Positions 38,724 through 45,677 of a DNA stretch of 64,000 nucleotides are shown here, in pieces. Numbering within the stretch: position 1 is the first letter of the stretch; the number at the start of each line of letters is the position of its first letter. The notes under the pieces were generated by a model that did not search any database, was not told the origin of the DNA, and saw nothing but the letters and a program-made list of their open reading frames with translations. A program made the translations under genes and the position numbers. This DNA is from Lentzea pudingi (lineage in GTDB: Bacteria; Actinomycetota; Actinomycetes; Mycobacteriales; Pseudonocardiaceae). The stretch is taken from assembly GCF_014646255.1 (NCBI RefSeq), contig NZ_BMNC01000002.1:432140-496139 (forward strand), read 5' to 3'.

Positions 38724-40493
38724 TCAGCCAGCCATCAGGGTGCCGACGGACACGAACTGGTAGCCCGCGCCCTTCAGCCCCGCGACGGTCTGCTGCAGGT
38801 ACCCGGTACCGAGGTACGGGTGGTAGAAGAAGCTCGCGACACCATCATCGACCACCTTGAGCTGGTTCGCCGTCTTGACCAGGTCGGCCGGCAGGCGGGC
38901 GGGGTGGTTGTTGAACGGCTCGGGCTCGACGTTGCCCACCGCCTCCGGCGCCACGACGGAGCCGTAGACGTCGCGGACCAGGTACGGGAAGTACTGGCCG
39001 TAGATCTTGTCGTACTGCGGCGTGCCCGTGCCGCACGCGCCACCGGGGCAGTACCCGCCGAAGTACAGGCCGCGGTCGTAGCGCTTGCCGAAGTTCTGCT
39101 GGATGACCTGGTAGTCCACCGCGGACGCGGCGTAGTGCGGCGGCTCGAAGATGGCGGGCTTCGCGAAACCGGCCAGCGCGAACGCGGTCGTCGCCGAGTT
39201 GATGCGGCCCTGCATCCACGCCGCCGAGTCGCCGGGGACCGGTCCGTCGTAGATCACGCTGTCGTTCTCGTCGACGTGGGCCGTGTAGAACTCGAAGTCG
39301 TTGCCGCTGCGGCCGTCGTACGGGTTGACCGCCTTGCCGAACTGGTGCGTGTAGCCGTGCATCAGGATCGTGCCGCCGCGCTGGGTCATGTACCGCAACG
39401 CGCTCACGACCTGCGGCCTCTGCGCCAGGTTCGCCGCCTCCGGCACGCCGTTGTTGTCGGCGCCCAGCGGGTTCTCGTAGCGCGGGTAGACCGCGATGGT
39501 GAACGGCACGTTCTGCGACTTGAGGTAGTCGGCGACCGCGCGCAGCTCGTTCGGGTCGGCGTCGGGGCCGACGTCCTCGATGCGCACCAGCGCGCGCTTG
39601 CGGTCGGCCATCGTCGGGTTCGAGACCTTGCTGATCAGGTCCGCCGCGGCCAGGTAGCGGTCGCCGTGGTCGACGTAGCTGAACGGGATCTCGCCTATGT
39701 AGGTCAGGTTCCTGGCCTTGGTGGCCCAGTTGATCGGGCCGGCGGCCGAGCCGGTCGCGATCGCCGGTGCCGACGCGATCGCCGGGTTCGTGATCGAGGT
39801 GATCATCAGGCCGGACGGGGCCGCGAGCGGGTTGCGGCCGAGGTCGGTGTTCTCGTACCGGACCGTGTTCGCGGTGCCGAAGTCGTACTGGACCCAGTTC
39901 CAGCCGTAGGTGGTGGCGAAGCTGGGCGCGCGGGCGGTGAGCTGCCAGATGTTGCTCGCCATCCACAGCACCGGCTTGCTGCCCGCCAGCACGTCGTCGA
40001 GGAACGCCACCGGGATCGGCTCGTCGTAGGTCGAGCCGATGTAGATCACGCCGGTGTAGCCGGACATCTCACCGGCCACATAGGACCCGACGGGGTGCAT
40101 GACGTACGGGCTGCCGTGCGAGACGAGGTTGCCCGTCTGCACCGCGTACGCCTCGCCGAGCCAGCTCCAGGCACCGGTGCTGTCGTAGAGCACCAACGTC
40201 TTCTGCGTCGACCTGGCTCCCGGCGCGCCGCCACCGTTCGTGCCGGTCGCCGCCGCCTTGGCCAGGGTGCCCACCACGGACGACACCGCAGTGGGTTGCG
40301 TCGTGCGCTTGGCGATGCGCGTGCTGGTCGTCGCGGGCTTGGTCTGCGGCTTCGGCGGCGCCGGCAGCGCGTTCTCGACGAGCTCGCCGACCGGGTCGAG
40401 GTTCAGCGAGATGGGCGCCGCCTGAGCGGGCGCCGGAATCATCGCGACCGCGAGCGCCACTCCCGCCGCGGCCTGGAAGAGTCGGCTTCTCAT
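38724..40493 (-). CDS. Secreted DUF2334 polysaccharide deacetylase-like protein
   Basis: Exported protein of 589 residues. Signal peptide ending about PAQAAP, a Pro/Thr/Lys-rich stretch to residue 95, a Rossmann-like beta/alpha domain (LVLYDSTGAWSWLGEAYA) and then the DUF2334 domain of the carbohydrate esterase 4 superfamily: ALVRIEDVGPDAD supplies the metal Asp, LMHGYTHQFG the paired His, and ASFFYHPYLG the C-terminal His. Expected to remove acyl groups from an extracellular polysaccharide. It overlaps the epimerase stop by 4 bases (ATGA), placing it in the same operon. Confidence 0.8.
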   Translation of the reverse strand: MRSRLFQAAAGVALAVAMIPAPAQAAPISLNLDPVGELVENALPAPPKPQTKPATTSTRIAKRTTQPTAVSSVVGTLAKAAATGTNGGGAPGARSTQKTLVLYDSTGAWSWLGEAYAVQTGNLVSHGSPYVMHPVGSYVAGEMSGYTGVIYIGSTYDEPIPVAFLDDVLAGSKPVLWMASNIWQLTARAPSFATTYGWNWVQYDFGTANTVRYENTDLGRNPLAAPSGLMITSITNPAIASAPAIATGSAAGPINWATKARNLTYIGEIPFSYVDHGDRYLAAADLISKVSNPTMADRKRALVRIEDVGPDADPNELRAVADYLKSQNVPFTIAVYPRYENPLGADNNGVPEAANLAQRPQVVSALRYMTQRGGTILMHGYTHQFGKAVNPYDGRSGNDFEFYTAHVDENDSVIYDGPVPGDSAAWMQGRINSATTAFALAGFAKPAIFEPPHYAASAVDYQVIQQNFGKRYDRGLYFGGYCPGGACGTGTPQYDKIYGQYFPYLVRDVYGSVVAPEAVGNVEPEPFNNHPARLPADLVKTANQLKVVDDGVASFFYHPYLGTGYLQQTVAGLKGAGYQFVSVGTLMAG

Positions 40494-41746
40494 GCGACAT
40501 CCACCTCTCCGGACATGCGCACGGTCGCGCTGCCCGCGTACGGAGCGAACTCAACGGGTCGTTGCTGTTGCAGGCCCAGCAGCCAGGCCAGTGCCTGTTC
40601 GGTGCGCACGGACGCGAGCCCGTCGCCGAACGGGTTGCCGTCGGCGGTCATCGCCTCGCGCGCGGCGGGGTTGTCGAGCAGCTGGACGGTCAGCGCGGTG
40701 ATGCGCGCCCGGTCGGTGCCGACGAGGACGGCGCAGCCCGACTCGACGGCCTCCATGCGCTCGGTCACGTCGCGCAGCACCAGCGCCGGGACGCCGAACG
40801 ACGGCGCCTCCTCCTGGATGCCGCCCGAGTCGGACAGCACCAGCGTGCACTGGGCGAGCAGCCGGGCGATCTGCGCGTACGGCAGCGGGTCGGTGATCGT
40901 GACGCGGGCGACGCCGCCGAGCACGTCCAGCACCTGCCGGCGCACCGCGGGGTTCGGGTGGGCGGGGAGCACGACCTCGACGTCGGGCCGGGCCGCCACG
41001 ACGTCCGCGACGGCGTGCAGCACGTCGTCGAGCGGCTCACCCCACGACTCGCGGCGGTGCGCGGTGACGAGCACGAGCCGCGACTGTCCGCTGTGGACCC
41101 TGTTCTCGATCTCCTGCAGCCTGCTGTCGCCGTAGGGCGCGCGGCGGGCGGCGACGTCGAGCACGGCGTCCACCACGGTGTTGCCGATCGTCAGGACGTT
41201 GTTGCCCTGCAACGACTCCGCGGCGAGGTGCGCGGCCGAGCCGGCGGTCGGCGTGAGGTGCAGCGACGCGAGCTGGCCGACCACCTTGCGGTTCCCCTCC
41301 TCGGGGAACGGCGAGGTCAGGTCGTGCGAGCGCAGGCCGGCTTCGAGGTGCACGACGGGGATCTGCTGCCAGAACGCGGCGAGCGCGCCCGCAAGCGTCG
41401 TCGTCGTGTCGCCCTGCACGAGCACCGCGGCCGGCGAGCGTTCGGTGAAGAGCCGGTCGAGCTCCTCGATCAGCTGGCTGGTCAGCTCGGCCTGGCCGCC
41501 CGTGACCCGGTTCAGCTCGAGCCTGACGTCGGCCGCGAAGCCGAACGACTCGAGCGCCTGGTCGACCATCTCGGGGTGCTGACCGGAGTTCACGAGCACG
41601 GGCCGAATACGACCGCAAGCGAACACAGCGGCGGCCACCGGTGCCATCTTCACTGCTTCCGGGCGCGTTCCCGCGACCAGGAAAACCTCGGGAACCTCGT
41701 CCCGGCAGAACTGCCGAGGGCCGGGCACCAGGGCACTTAGTCCCAT
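40490..41746 (-). CDS. wecB: UDP-N-acetylglucosamine 2-epimerase (non-hydrolysing)
   Basis: Enzyme of 418 residues interconverting UDP-GlcNAc and UDP-ManNAc. Motifs: FLVAGTRPEAVKMAP, LVQGDTTTTLAGALAAF, HLEAGLRS, FPEEGNRK, VTAHRRESWGEPL and LSDSGGIQEEAPSFG, all typical of WecB/MnaA. About 18 residues precede the usual family start. GAGG upstream of the ATG. It begins an operon with the DUF2334 gene and diverges from a processive glycosyltransferase gene, pointing to ManNAc-containing surface polysaccharide. Confidence 0.92.
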   Translation of the reverse strand: MGLSALVPGPRQFCRDEVPEVFLVAGTRPEAVKMAPVAAAVFACGRIRPVLVNSGQHPEMVDQALESFGFAADVRLELNRVTGGQAELTSQLIEELDRLFTERSPAAVLVQGDTTTTLAGALAAFWQQIPVVHLEAGLRSHDLTSPFPEEGNRKVVGQLASLHLTPTAGSAAHLAAESLQGNNVLTIGNTVVDAVLDVAARRAPYGDSRLQEIENRVHSGQSRLVLVTAHRRESWGEPLDDVLHAVADVVAARPDVEVVLPAHPNPAVRRQVLDVLGGVARVTITDPLPYAQIARLLAQCTLVLSDSGGIQEEAPSFGVPALVLRDVTERMEAVESGCAVLVGTDRARITALTVQLLDNPAAREAMTADGNPFGDGLASVRTEQALAWLLGLQQQRPVEFAPYAGSATVRMSGEVDVA

Positions 41747-41852
41747 CTTCTACCTCTTTGAACTGTCCAGGCACGCGCGGCGAACGTGCGCCATCAGCGC
41801 GGTGTGTGAACACCGCAGACAATCAATTGGTACCCCGCCTCGCGAAGGTACC

Positions 41853-41914
41853 GCCATATCGGTGATCAACATTGTGGACCCGTGTAACGAAGGTCCATTC
41901 GTCCCCGATATGGC
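41853..41914. promoter_or_regulatory. Spaced inverted repeat in wecB-GT2 divergent region
   Basis: GCCATATCGG and its complement CCGATATGGC, separated by 42 bases, lie between the divergent wecB and glycosyltransferase genes. The arms are AT-containing in a GC-rich genome and would suit paired operators for a regulator controlling both directions. The GT2 promoter begins three bases after the second arm. Confidence 0.5.
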
Positions 41915-41917
41915 CGG

Positions 41918-41947
41918 TTGACGCTCTGCCGCGTCAGCCCTTAGTCT
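41918..41947 (+). promoter_or_regulatory. Promoter of the sORF-glycosyltransferase unit
   Basis: TTGACG, 18-base spacer, TAGTCT: a good primary sigma factor promoter. The start site would be near 41954, leaving about 70 bases of leader before the small ORF and about 137 before the glycosyltransferase. Confidence 0.5.
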
Positions 41948-42022
41948 CGCCTCGAACACCAGCTCCCGGGCCTGCTGTCTGGTATTTCGCACTGGCCCAG
42001 CGCTTCGTTACCGGGAGCAGCG

Positions 42023-42094
42023 ATGACTCAACTTCACAAGAGCTTCCCTGTTGTTGCCCCTGCAACCGCTTTTGTAGACAGGTTTGTGTCATGA
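42023..42094 (+). CDS. Putative 23-residue leader peptide coupled to GT2
   Basis: Short ORF encoding 23 residues that start MTQLHKSFPVVA and end FVDRFVS. GGGAG sits six bases before its ATG, and its TGA overlaps the ATG of the glycosyltransferase (ATGA), while that gene has only a weak site of its own. This argues for translational coupling or a regulatory leader peptide. The GC content is well below that of neighbouring genes. No homologue is known to me. Confidence 0.55.
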   Translation: MTQLHKSFPVVAPATAFVDRFVS

Positions 42095-43413
42095 CAGACA
42101 CGACACAATTCGCGACGTTCATGCTCGTTCTTCTGGTGTTTTGGCCCAGTTACAACCTGGCGCTCGCGGTGTTCGTCTGGTGGCGCCCGAAACCGGGCGG
42201 ACCGGAGGTTCCCTCGCGGCATCCGCTGGAGTACTGGATCATCATTCCGGCATTGAACGAGGAACGTGTCGTGGCCAACACGGTGCGCTCCGCACTCGCA
42301 TTGGACGATGCGCGCACTCCGGTTCAAGTCGTCGTCGTGGACGACGGTTCCGACGACCGCACTCCGCACGTGCTCGCCGAGATCGACGACGACCGGCTGC
42401 ACGTCCTCAGACGCACCCCGCCGGAAGCCCGCAAGGGCAAGGGCGAGGCGCTGAACCACGCCTTCGCCTACATCCGCGACATCGCCGAGGAGGCCGGTAC
42501 GGTCCACCGCACGATCGTCGGCGTGATCGACGGTGACGGCCGCGGTGAGCCCGGCATGCTGTCCGAGATCTCCGCGTACTTCGCCCGGCGAGGCGTCGGT
42601 GCCGTGCAGTGCCGGGTCCGGATCCACAACCGCACCAACCTGCTGGCGTTCCTGCAGGACCTGGAGTTCAGCTGTGTGGTCGACGCCTCGCAGTCGCTGC
42701 GGGACGTCCTCGGCACGGTCGGACTCGGTGGCAACGGCCAGTTCGTGCGTCTCAGCACGTTGATGGGCCTGGGCGAGGCCCCGTGGTCGGCGTGCCTGGT
42801 CGAGGACCTGGAACTGGGCCTGCGCGTGCACCTGACCGGACAGCGGATCCGGTACGCCACGCACGCGACGATCACCCAGCAGGGCCTCGTGGACGTGCGA
42901 CGGCTGCTGCGCCAGCGCACCCGCTGGGGCCAGGGCAACCTGCAGTGCCTTGGTTACGTGCCGAAGCTCGTCCGCGCCAAGCACGTGAGTTCCTTCGCAC
43001 TGCTGGAGTTCCTGCAGTACCTGCTCACGCCGTGGCTGGTCGCGCCGATGACGTTGCTCATCACCGCGTTGGTGGGCTTCGGCTTCTACGCCCAGTTCGC
43101 CGGGCACGAGATCGCCGGGTTCACCGTGGACGGCTCGAACGCCTTGCTGGCGCTGGGGATCTGGCTGGTGGCGCTGCTGCTGCCCGGCCTGATCTGGGGC
43201 CTGGTGCACCGGCTCAGGCACGGCGACGAACCGTTGTGGAGATGCCTGCTGGTCAGCCTGGCCTATCCGCTCTTCATGGTCCTGGGGTCGGTCTCGACGC
43301 TGCGCGCCCTGTACCGGCACTTCGCCGGGCGCAACACGTGGGCGAAGACGGAACGCCTGGCGGAGAAGGAAGTTCCGGTGGTGACGGCCAAGCCCGTGCC
43401 GAAGATCGCTTAG
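42091..43413 (+). CDS. Processive family 2 glycosyltransferase (polysaccharide synthase)
   Basis: Membrane synthase of 440 residues. One N-terminal membrane segment, a GT-A domain with VVVVDDGSDD, VIDGDGR (DxD), LVEDLELGL (catalytic Asp) and RQRTRWGQGN (the Q-x-x-R-W motif of processive synthases), then three C-terminal membrane segments. This is the cellulose/hyaluronan/poly-GlcNAc synthase type, which polymerises and exports at once. The divergent UDP-GlcNAc 2-epimerase suggests a HexNAc donor. The frame is open 73 codons upstream, but this ATG fits the domain and overlaps the small ORF. Confidence 0.88.
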   Translation: MTDTTQFATFMLVLLVFWPSYNLALAVFVWWRPKPGGPEVPSRHPLEYWIIIPALNEERVVANTVRSALALDDARTPVQVVVVDDGSDDRTPHVLAEIDDDRLHVLRRTPPEARKGKGEALNHAFAYIRDIAEEAGTVHRTIVGVIDGDGRGEPGMLSEISAYFARRGVGAVQCRVRIHNRTNLLAFLQDLEFSCVVDASQSLRDVLGTVGLGGNGQFVRLSTLMGLGEAPWSACLVEDLELGLRVHLTGQRIRYATHATITQQGLVDVRRLLRQRTRWGQGNLQCLGYVPKLVRAKHVSSFALLEFLQYLLTPWLVAPMTLLITALVGFGFYAQFAGHEIAGFTVDGSNALLALGIWLVALLLPGLIWGLVHRLRHGDEPLWRCLLVSLAYPLFMVLGSVSTLRALYRHFAGRNTWAKTERLAEKEVPVVTAKPVPKIA

Positions 43414-43425
43414 CCGTCAGAGGTT

Positions 43426-44079
43426 CTAGAACGTGCCGGGGTGCGCGCGTCTGCGCCGGGCCGCGTAGACGCCCGCCTCGGTGCGGCGGTCGAAGCCGAG
43501 CTTGTGCAGCAACGACGACACGTAGTTCTTCACGGTCTTCTCCGCCAGGAACAGGCGGTTGGCGATCTGCCGGTTCGTCATGCCCTCGGCGATGAGGTCG
43601 AGGATGCGGCGCTCCTGGGGACTGAGCGCGGCATAGCGCGGATCCTCCTCGGGGCCGCCGCGAAGCCGTTGCAGGACGGTGGCCGTGACGCCGGCGTGCA
43701 GCAGCGATCCACCCGAGGCGAGGGTGCGGACGGCGGCCACGAGGTCGTTGCCGGTCACCTCTTTCAGCATGTACCCGGACGCGCCGGCCATGATCGCTCC
43801 GAACAGCGCCTCGTCGTCCGAGTAGGACGTGAGCATCAGGCACGCGGGCGGCGGCTGCACGATGCTCCTGATCTCCCGGCACACCGTGACGCCGTCGCCG
43901 TCGGGCAACCGCACGTCGATGATCGCCACGTCGGGTTTGAGCCGCGGTGCCTGCGCGACCGCGGCCGTGGCGCTGTCCGCCTGGCCGACGACCTCGACGT
44001 CCTCCGCCTGCGCCAGCAACTGCACGAGTCCGCGTCGCACGATCTCGTGGTCGTCCACCAACAGCACCGCTATCGCCAT
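43426..44079 (-). CDS. NarL/DevR-type response regulator
   Basis: Response regulator of 217 residues: receiver domain with the acidic pocket VDDHE and phosphoacceptor Asp55 in IIDVRLPDGDG, and a C-terminal LuxR helix-turn-helix (LSPQERRILDLIAEGMTNRQIANRLFL). It most resembles DevR/DosR. Its start lies within the last 10 bases of the sensor kinase gene, so the pair is co-transcribed. It converges on the glycosyltransferase gene with a 12-base gap; no terminator is evident between them. Confidence 0.92.
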   Translation of the reverse strand: MAIAVLLVDDHEIVRRGLVQLLAQAEDVEVVGQADSATAAVAQAPRLKPDVAIIDVRLPDGDGVTVCREIRSIVQPPPACLMLTSYSDDEALFGAIMAGASGYMLKEVTGNDLVAAVRTLASGGSLLHAGVTATVLQRLRGGPEEDPRYAALSPQERRILDLIAEGMTNRQIANRLFLAEKTVKNYVSSLLHKLGFDRRTEAGVYAARRRRAHPGTF

Positions 44080-45581
44080 CTCGCCTCCTGCAGGACCAGC
44101 GGAACGAACCAGGTGATGCTCACCCCCGCGCCGGGGATCGAGTCGACCGCGCAGTCGCCGTGGTGGCGCCGCGCCCGAGCCGCCATGTTCGCGAGTCCTC
44201 CGGCGTGATGCGGCACGTCACTGGAATCGTCAGCCAACGGCAAGCCCCTGCCGTCGTCCTTGACCATGAGTTCAAGACTCGTCACGGTGCGATCCACGCT
44301 CACGGAGACAGCGACGTGCTTCGCCCGTGCGTGGCGCACGACGTTCGTGAGCGCCTCTCTCAGAGTCGCGAGGAGATCGGGCCGGACCTGGTCCGGCACC
44401 ACGGTGTCCAACGGGCCTTCGAGCGACACGTCCGGCTCGAACCCCAGCAGCCGTGCGGAGTCGTGCACCGCGTTGAGCAGCTGTCCGCGCAGGCTCGCAC
44501 CCCCGGGAGGTGGTCCCTGCAGGGAGAAGATGGTGCGGCGGATCTCGCGGATCGTATGGTCGACCTCCTCGACGAACCCGCTGATCCGCTCGACGACCTG
44601 GGGCCTGACGCTCATCCCCGTCAGCCCCTGGAGGCCGAGGCCGAGGCCGAACAGCCGCTGGATGACCAGGTCGTGCAGGTCCCGCGCGATGCGGTCGCGG
44701 TCCTCCAGCACCGCGAGCCGCTCGGTGTCGCCCCTGGCCCGCGTGAACTCCAGCACCAGCGCGGCCTGCGCGGCGAAGGCCTCGATGAGGTCGGGGTCGT
44801 CGAAGCTGGGTTCGCCCGGCGGCCGCGCGACGACGAGGACGCCGATCGTCCGTTCGCCCACCGTGAGCGGCACGACGGCGCACGGCCCCGGCACCGCCTC
44901 CAGCCCGCCCTCCTCGTGGCACTCCCCCATGCCGGACTCGAAGACCCGGTGGGTGGCGGTGCCTTCTCTCGGCACCCGCATGCCCTCGGCGTCGTAGCTG
45001 CCGCCGTCGGTCACCTCGATGACGAGGTCGCCGTTGTGGTCGGGGAGGACGACCGCGGCGAAGTCGGCGTTGGCCGTGAGGCGCGCGGTCCTCGCCACCA
45101 GGTAGAGCGCGTCCCTGCCGTTCGTGCCCAGCAGGAGATCGGTGGTCACGTCGGCGGCGGCCCTGAGCCACGCCTCGCGCTTGCGCGTCCGCTCGTAGCG
45201 GTCGAGGTGGCCCACAGCGCTTCCCGCTGCCGTCGCCAGCGCGGTGAGGACGTCGCGGTCCTGGGCGGTGAACTCCGGTTTCCCGGTGAGGAAGAGGTTG
45301 CCGAAGGTCTCGTCGTGGACCTTGATCGGGGCGCCGAGGAAGTCGGCCACGCCGATCGAGCGCGGGTCGCCCGAGGTGATCTGCACCTGGCCGCCGTGGG
45401 TCGCGGTGAACTCGGTCAGCTCTTTGTGGCCGTGGATCACGGCCAGCGCGCCGTAGGAGGCTCCGATCAGGTCGCAGGCCGACTCGACGACGTGGCGCAG
45501 GAGATCGGGGAGGGTGTCGTCCTCGGCGAAGGACAGCACAACGTCCAGCACACGCTGCTCCGTGCTCACGTTGCCGCCCAC
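44070..45581 (-). CDS. GAF-GAF sensor histidine kinase (DevS/DosS-like)
   Basis: Cytosolic kinase of 503 residues: GAF domain 1 (about residues 10-145, GASYGALAVI), GAF domain 2 (about 165-310), HisKA_3 dimerisation helix with the phospho-His in ARDLHDLVIQRLFGLGL, and HATPase_c (EALTNVVRHARA, DDGRGLPL). This matches DevS/DosS, which sense oxygen or NO through haem in the first GAF domain; haem binding here is not proven. I chose the GTG with AGGGGTGAAG upstream; a GTG four codons later is possible. Partner of the response regulator encoded next. Confidence 0.9.
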   Translation of the reverse strand: MGGNVSTEQRVLDVVLSFAEDDTLPDLLRHVVESACDLIGASYGALAVIHGHKELTEFTATHGGQVQITSGDPRSIGVADFLGAPIKVHDETFGNLFLTGKPEFTAQDRDVLTALATAAGSAVGHLDRYERTRKREAWLRAAADVTTDLLLGTNGRDALYLVARTARLTANADFAAVVLPDHNGDLVIEVTDGGSYDAEGMRVPREGTATHRVFESGMGECHEEGGLEAVPGPCAVVPLTVGERTIGVLVVARPPGEPSFDDPDLIEAFAAQAALVLEFTRARGDTERLAVLEDRDRIARDLHDLVIQRLFGLGLGLQGLTGMSVRPQVVERISGFVEEVDHTIREIRRTIFSLQGPPPGGASLRGQLLNAVHDSARLLGFEPDVSLEGPLDTVVPDQVRPDLLATLREALTNVVRHARAKHVAVSVSVDRTVTSLELMVKDDGRGLPLADDSSDVPHHAGGLANMAARARRHHGDCAVDSIPGAGVSITWFVPLVLQEARWR

Positions 45582-45661
45582 GGCTTCACCCCTTGGGGGA
45601 TAGAAGTGACACCGCACGAACGACTGAGGGTAACTCTCCTGCGAAGTCAAGGGGGAGACCA

Positions 45662-45677
45662 TCACTGCAAACAGTGA
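45662..45677. promoter_or_regulatory. Inverted repeat upstream of sensor kinase gene
   Basis: Perfect TCACTG-CAAA-CAGTGA about 80 bases upstream of the leftward kinase start. Reasonable operator candidate; also close to the end of the neighbouring gene, so a role in termination is possible but the stem is short. Confidence 0.4.

Follow-up and report, generated by a model that had tools for sequence, protein, structure and literature searches.

A 23-codon open reading frame that probably delivers ribosomes to a Lentzea glycosyltransferase gene

Lentzea pudingi carries, directly before the gene for a GT2 glycosyltransferase (GT), a leader open reading frame (ORF) of 23 codons. Comparison with related genomes makes it probable that this is a ribosome-delivery ORF, standing in the slot that is filled by a membrane-protein gene in relatives; within Lentzea, the translated frame looks conserved and the peptide does not. 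We infer that ribosomes translate the leader and that the GT needs it, and also that it arose from the membrane-protein gene and did not replace that gene. Short upstream ORFs are usually judged singly in each genome, and the peptide is hard to separate from the act of translation; 16 Lentzea genomes separate the two, in that start, length and stop are retained and the peptide changes in the manner of third codon positions. Because outgroups have a real protein in the slot, an origin of coupling upstream ORFs from lost genes becomes directly testable. The window, that is, the whole stretch of DNA that was analysed, comprises 64,000 nucleotides of a 9.2-Mb genome (assembly GCF_014646255.1, contig NZ_BMNC01000002.1, positions 432,140 to 496,139), and its features are listed in Table 1.

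Table 1. Features of the window at and before the glycosyltransferase gene
Feature	Position	Strand	Remarks
DUF2334 protein	38724..40493	-	Pfam PF10096
wecB, non-hydrolysing UDP-GlcNAc 2-epimerase, divergent	40490..41746	-	TIGR00236, 389.8 bits
ACCGCCATATCGG, operator-like	41850..41862	+	one of an inverted pair
ACCGGCCATATCGG, operator-like	41905..41918	-	other site of the inverted pair
GGGAG, Shine-Dalgarno site of leader	42013..42017	+	pairing energy -6.6 kcal/mol
Leader ORF, 23 codons, MTQLHKSFPVVAPATAFVDRFVS	42023..42094	+	ATG 42023, TGA 42092-42094
Small hairpin GTTGC-CCCT-GCAAC in leader	42053..42066	+	TTTT at 42070-42073; possible attenuator or masking structure
AGG, weak Shine-Dalgarno site of GT, inside leader	42080..42082	+	8 bases 5' of GT ATG; -3.2 kcal/mol
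ATGA, leader stop overlapping GT start	42091..42094	+	GT ATG 42091
GT2 glycosyltransferase (GT), 440 aa	42091..43413	+	Pfam Glyco_tranf_2_3, 104.8 bits

Frame and peptide of the leader in Lentzea

An earlier note on this DNA, made from the letters alone, had described a 23-codon ORF with a good ribosome-binding site, a stop that overlaps the start of a synthase gene with a weak site, and a deviant base composition. All three observations hold: the overlap is ATGA, the leader pairs more strongly with the anti-Shine-Dalgarno sequence than the GT does in the window (Table 1) and in each of the 16 Lentzea genomes compared (-5.8 to -6.9 versus -1.5 to -5.0 kcal/mol), and the leader has a GC content of 0.47 and a GC3 of 0.42, against 0.67 and 0.89 for the GT and a GC content of 0.69 for the window.

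Twenty-four Lentzea genomes were searched: 16, the window's own included, encode the GT at an identity of at least 80%, and the other eight have only a paralogue near 35%. The frame, whose absence from relatives the same note would have counted against its reading, is kept: the leader ATG at -68, the 23 codons and the ATGA overlap recur in 15 of the 16 genomes, GGAG precedes the leader start in all 16, and alignment rows have CAGG at the position of the GT Shine-Dalgarno site in 15. The sixteenth and most distant genome (L017) possesses a different ORF, MRQVPVGARNSLPMQFLSPTGQ, of 22 codons, which is unrelated in sequence, is read in a different register and has a TAA that finishes one base 5' of the GT ATG. 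At its second codon the GT has T in 10, S in three, N in one and R in one of the 15 genomes, and this codon begins with A in all 15, so that the TGA of the leader is preserved. No insertion or deletion is found in the leader, whereas about 261 intergenic bases contain 25 distinct gap runs, or 14 clusters after merging; the chance of finding none is about 0.002 by gap runs or 0.03 by merged clusters. Substitutions are more frequent in the leader (1.68 per site) than in the adjacent intergenic stretch (1.18 per site). A sequence from Nocardia sp. NRRL S-836 (L042), identical to that of L015, groups with Lentzea in the GT tree, and the genome collection assigns this organism to the same genus as Lentzea.

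The peptide encoded by this frame drifts. Along the GT tree, the first, second and third codon positions of the 15 leaders changed 29, 36 and 41 times, respectively, whereas those of GT codons 2-100 changed 49, 20 and 168 times, with 1.70 changes per site at third positions. The nonsynonymous/synonymous ratio of the leader (70 and 35 changes) is 0.77 of that expected from relocated substitutions (P 0.12), a value compatible with weak selection on the peptide, as power is limited by 21 codons. The same test gave 0.16 for codons 2-120 of the GT. Applied to the small protein that outgroups encode in the slot, it indicated clear purifying selection in three of four groups (0.15, 0.22 and 0.38, with no null draw of 500 as low) and gave 0.67 (P 0.21) in the fourth, which consists of four close genomes; it is therefore powered at such a length. 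A sequence-reading leader peptide, whether an amino-acid attenuator or an arrest peptide, was considered and set aside: the leaders have no conserved regulatory codons or arrest sequence, and the earlier suggestion of a regulatory leader peptide acting through its sequence is not supported by the distribution of changes over codon positions or by the ratio of 0.77. Since the peptide drifts while the start, length and end are kept, the ORF probably delivers ribosomes to the GT gene.

The small membrane protein of related genera

Of 390 genomes searched in the family, 53 contain the GT at E <= 1e-110: the 16 Lentzea genomes, and 37 others with 41 loci; samples of the order and the class yielded 13 of 397 and 1 of 394 genomes, respectively, at E <= 1e-90, own genome included. 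At 43 of the 44 non-Lentzea loci examined, in an otherwise matching gene order, the slot encodes a predicted single-helix membrane protein of 50-61 aa: a small protein with one hydrophobic stretch is encoded directly 5' of the GT at all 41 loci of the family search, and also at two further distinct loci (L045, which equals L094, and L048). The ORF was chosen at 38 of the 41 loci by a script score that favours hydrophobic ORFs and at three (L068, L083 and L086) by hand; this bias was checked by the selection test described above and by a profile search, in which the profile (A1) includes rows from some of the genomes searched. The highest 19-residue hydropathy of the small proteins is 1.66-2.74, versus -0.02 to 1.56 for the leaders of the 16 Lentzea genomes. 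Their consensus reads MSxxRxxPxxxxxAxxGxxxxG, a helix, and then RSxxLRL. Measured from their stop, the nearest in-frame GT start lies at a distance of -4 in 16 of the 41 loci, -1 in three, and +3 to +15 in 22. The one exception of the 44 (L100, in genome G491) is a 37-codon ORF with an ATGA overlap, a hydropathy of 1.36 and no clear membrane helix, which may be a second, possibly independent short version; the GT was found in one of 17 genomes of that organism's family.

The proteins encoded immediately 5' of the GT at loci L053-L093, L045 and L048 form an undescribed single-helix family that begins with MSxxRxxP and ends with RSxxLR. Four representatives matched no family of Pfam or NCBIfam (best E 0.052), and a literature search returned no useful match for the small membrane protein or for the leader as an upstream ORF, which is not proof that they are unpublished. 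The protein is unnamed, conserved and adjacent to a synthase, and annotation pipelines can miss such proteins. It is a candidate accessory subunit of the synthase; if this is true, the small membrane protein of the other genera is a new one. The earlier note had also considered a small membrane partner of the synthase. That idea points to a real membrane protein in the slot of other genera. For Lentzea it is not supported, as the leaders have at most 23 codons and a hydropathy of at most 1.56, and they lack the features of the relatives' family (one helix, 50-61 aa, an RS.xLR-like end).

The profile built from 15 small proteins matched beside the GT in 12 of 13 other genomes (E <= 4.1e-10), the miss being G491, and among the 24 Lentzea genomes it found nothing better than 4.9e-4, in long frames. 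The best match in a GT-bearing Lentzea genome had an E value of 0.0037 (G019, model positions 2-32). Relocation of the small membrane gene within Lentzea was considered and rejected, the match at 4.9e-4 being a 390-aa frame in a genome (G004) that has no GT. In the GT tree, built from 69 of 69 proteins, Lentzea forms one clade (support 0.984) next to L045 and L048 (1.0), and the next branches are L053 with L054 (0.90) and then L081 with L087 (0.84), all of which carry the small protein. With Lentzea thus nested among carriers, loss or replacement in its line is the simplest reading, and the small-protein gene was apparently lost or replaced there, with coupled translation retained. Comparison of the upstream DNA and start region of the leader with those of the small membrane ORF (eight loci, two Lentzea queries) gave no significant likeness (lowest P 0.055), so that only position argues for the leader having descended from the membrane-protein gene. 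It is conceivable, though we hold it with some doubt, that in the ancestor of Lentzea a protein gene became a purely translational device: its product, a small membrane subunit of a WecB-linked polysaccharide synthase, would have been lost and its start, translation and overlap retained as the synthase depends on them, so that 23 codons with a freely drifting peptide were left, with the accessory subunit persisting elsewhere.

Coupled translation and its rivals

In the mechanism that we favour, ribosomes would load at the strong Shine-Dalgarno site of the leader and translate its 23 codons, the meaning of which would be irrelevant. On reaching the ATGA overlap they would terminate and then reinitiate on the GT; the Shine-Dalgarno site of the GT itself is weak and could be sequestered by local hairpins. 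The leader occupies the slot between the divergent wecB and the GT; the small protein is gone from Lentzea, and the coupled translation would have been retained. The leader has the marks of a coupling upstream ORF: an initiation site of its own, an end at or overlapping the next start, and a frame kept without detectable selection on the peptide. Coupling, as first proposed, is supported by the retention of start, Shine-Dalgarno site, length and overlap in 15 of 16 genomes and by the L017 ORF that also ends at the GT; the half of the proposal that concerned the peptide is not. The GT might also initiate independently, its weak site being at good spacing.

Comparable arrangements have been described. 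The nearest one with measurements behind it comes from Mycobacterium tuberculosis, in which an upstream ORF with an AUGA overlap (uPPE2) is required for the downstream gene PPE2, mostly through termination-reinitiation (PMC11260477); the Lentzea leader is likewise short, with its own Shine-Dalgarno site and an AUGA overlap with the downstream gene. The systems differ in that the uPPE2 leader has a B12 riboswitch and PPE2 is described as having no Shine-Dalgarno site, whereas the window has no match to an Rfam family and the Lentzea GT has a weak site, and in that relatives of Lentzea hold a membrane-protein gene in the slot. From the ribosome-delivery upstream ORFs treated in a review of translational coupling (PMC12548453), the Lentzea ORF is set apart by its site, which genome comparison suggests is that of a former protein gene. 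The annotated gene pairs for which ATGA overlaps and termination-reinitiation are described (PMC6728339) have the same overlap geometry, whereas the Lentzea leader is an ORF without a selected product. The kind, a ribosome-delivery upstream ORF, is known; the place, apparently that of a lost small-protein gene, would be what is new.

Folding of the RNA lends this mechanism some, though weak, support. In the fold predicted for this region of the window (-18.9 kcal/mol, z -2.46), leader codons are base-paired to the Shine-Dalgarno site of the GT, and a second hairpin contains the GT ATG. Folds of 65 bases spanning the leader and GT start fall below the shuffle mean in all 16 genomes (z -0.29 to -2.46), with structures that differ, and covariation over this region is not above that of shuffles (52 of 500 reach the score), leaving the hairpin pairing without covariation support; a conserved RNA structure here is a possibility. 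Rfam 15 at gathering score gave no match to a curated riboswitch or cis-acting RNA in the window. The sequence TTTTG that follows the hairpin is kept in 15 of 16 genomes, which are the 15 with the 23-codon frame, even though neighbouring genes seldom use the codon TTT (0.3 per 1000), and this points to a constraint on the RNA rather than on the peptide.

These observations also bear on a transcription attenuator, in which the hairpin and TTTT would halt RNA synthesis except when a ribosome at work on the leader keeps the hairpin from forming, so that leader translation would license transcription of the GT. Such a device, which could operate jointly with coupling, would account for the terminator-like site in the window, for the invariant position of TTTTG in all 15 leaders with the frame, and for the folding of the 32 bases 5' of the T-run, which in 14 of the 16 genomes is better than in shuffles (P < 0.05 in seven) and reaches -16.1 kcal/mol. 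We consider it unlikely, however, as this fold is weak in the window itself (-5.1 kcal/mol, P 0.13), shuffled sequences fold at least as well as L016 and L017, the strength varies between clades, the run contains four T only, and the P values are not independent because the genomes are related.

A functional micropeptide, whose 23 residues would themselves regulate or bind the synthase, might explain why the C-terminal ATAFVDRFVS varies little in most genomes and why the nonsynonymous/synonymous ratio is slightly below 1. That ratio is nevertheless not below neutral in a test that detects selection on the small membrane protein in three of four groups, L015 and L016 differ at many residues, the sequence of L017 is unrelated, and the conserved C-terminal stretch overlaps the start region of the GT and so has a reason to be conserved at the DNA or RNA level; we regard the micropeptide as quite improbable. 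Very doubtful, too, is an untranslated GT start region with an ORF open by chance: conservation is seen in the bases closest to the GT start, as expected of a start region, and the absence of in-frame stops, given the composition, is not significant alone (about 1 expected by chance), but when the 150 bases upstream were dinucleotide-shuffled 5000 times, only 15 of the shuffles gave an ORF of at least eight codons with a Shine-Dalgarno site, an ATG and the same ATGA overlap. Moreover, the start, Shine-Dalgarno site and overlap are kept, the leader has no insertions or deletions, and in L017 another ORF finishes at that position.

The glycosyltransferase and its surroundings

The GT contains QRTRW, which fits the QxxRW motif of processive GT2 enzymes. 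It scores below the curated cut-off of the XrtP-associated glycosyltransferase model NF053846 (314 bits versus 520), and no solved structure with a sequence match to it at 1e-5 was found. PgaC/IcaA is a GT2 synthase with a small membrane partner, PgaD/IcaD, and the non-Lentzea loci resemble this arrangement; they differ in that the small protein of the relatives has one predicted helix and 50-61 aa, and the GT scores 81.9 bits against the cut-off of 422.3 bits for PgaC/IcaA (TIGR03937).

For Escherichia coli, a polymer of ManNAc has been proposed as the product of the GT2 synthase NfrB together with the UDP-GlcNAc 2-epimerase WecB (PMC8669469). Lentzea also pairs a GT2 synthase with a UDP-GlcNAc 2-epimerase, and by analogy its GT and wecB may make a ManNAc-containing polysaccharide; in that account NfrB has an MshEN domain for c-di-GMP and is accompanied by NfrA, whereas a Pfam scan of the 440-aa Lentzea GT gives no MshEN domain.

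In three Lentzea genomes (loci G004:C35, G011:C1 and G019:C6), the 35% paralogue of the GT adjoins a weak exosortase match. The exosortase link that NF053846 would suggest was rejected for the GT, these matches being beside the paralogue.

The clear promoter that the earlier note had placed before the leader was not recovered: a scan of 41740-42150 for the sigma-70 consensus found none. A promoter-like pair can be read by eye, TTGACG (41918-41923) followed after 18 bases by TAGTCT (41942-41947), of which the former is kept in 14 of 16 Lentzea genomes and the latter in nine. The pattern ACCG(N)CCATATCGG occurs in two inverted copies between wecB and the leader (Table 1). In six whole Lentzea genomes, all 11 exact matches to it are in the wecB-leader intergenic stretch, and a reversed control pattern had one match. 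Confined as they are to this stretch, the inverted sites look like a putative locus-specific operator pair.

The divergent wecB precedes the slot in Lentzea and at most loci of relatives. At six loci from one group of relatives (L067 and L069-L073), the place before the small ORF and the GT is taken by a DUF2334 gene instead of wecB. Just 3' of the GT, on the opposite strand (43426-45665), the window encodes a LuxR-type response regulator and a GAF-domain histidine kinase, both of which stay near the GT in Lentzea loci.
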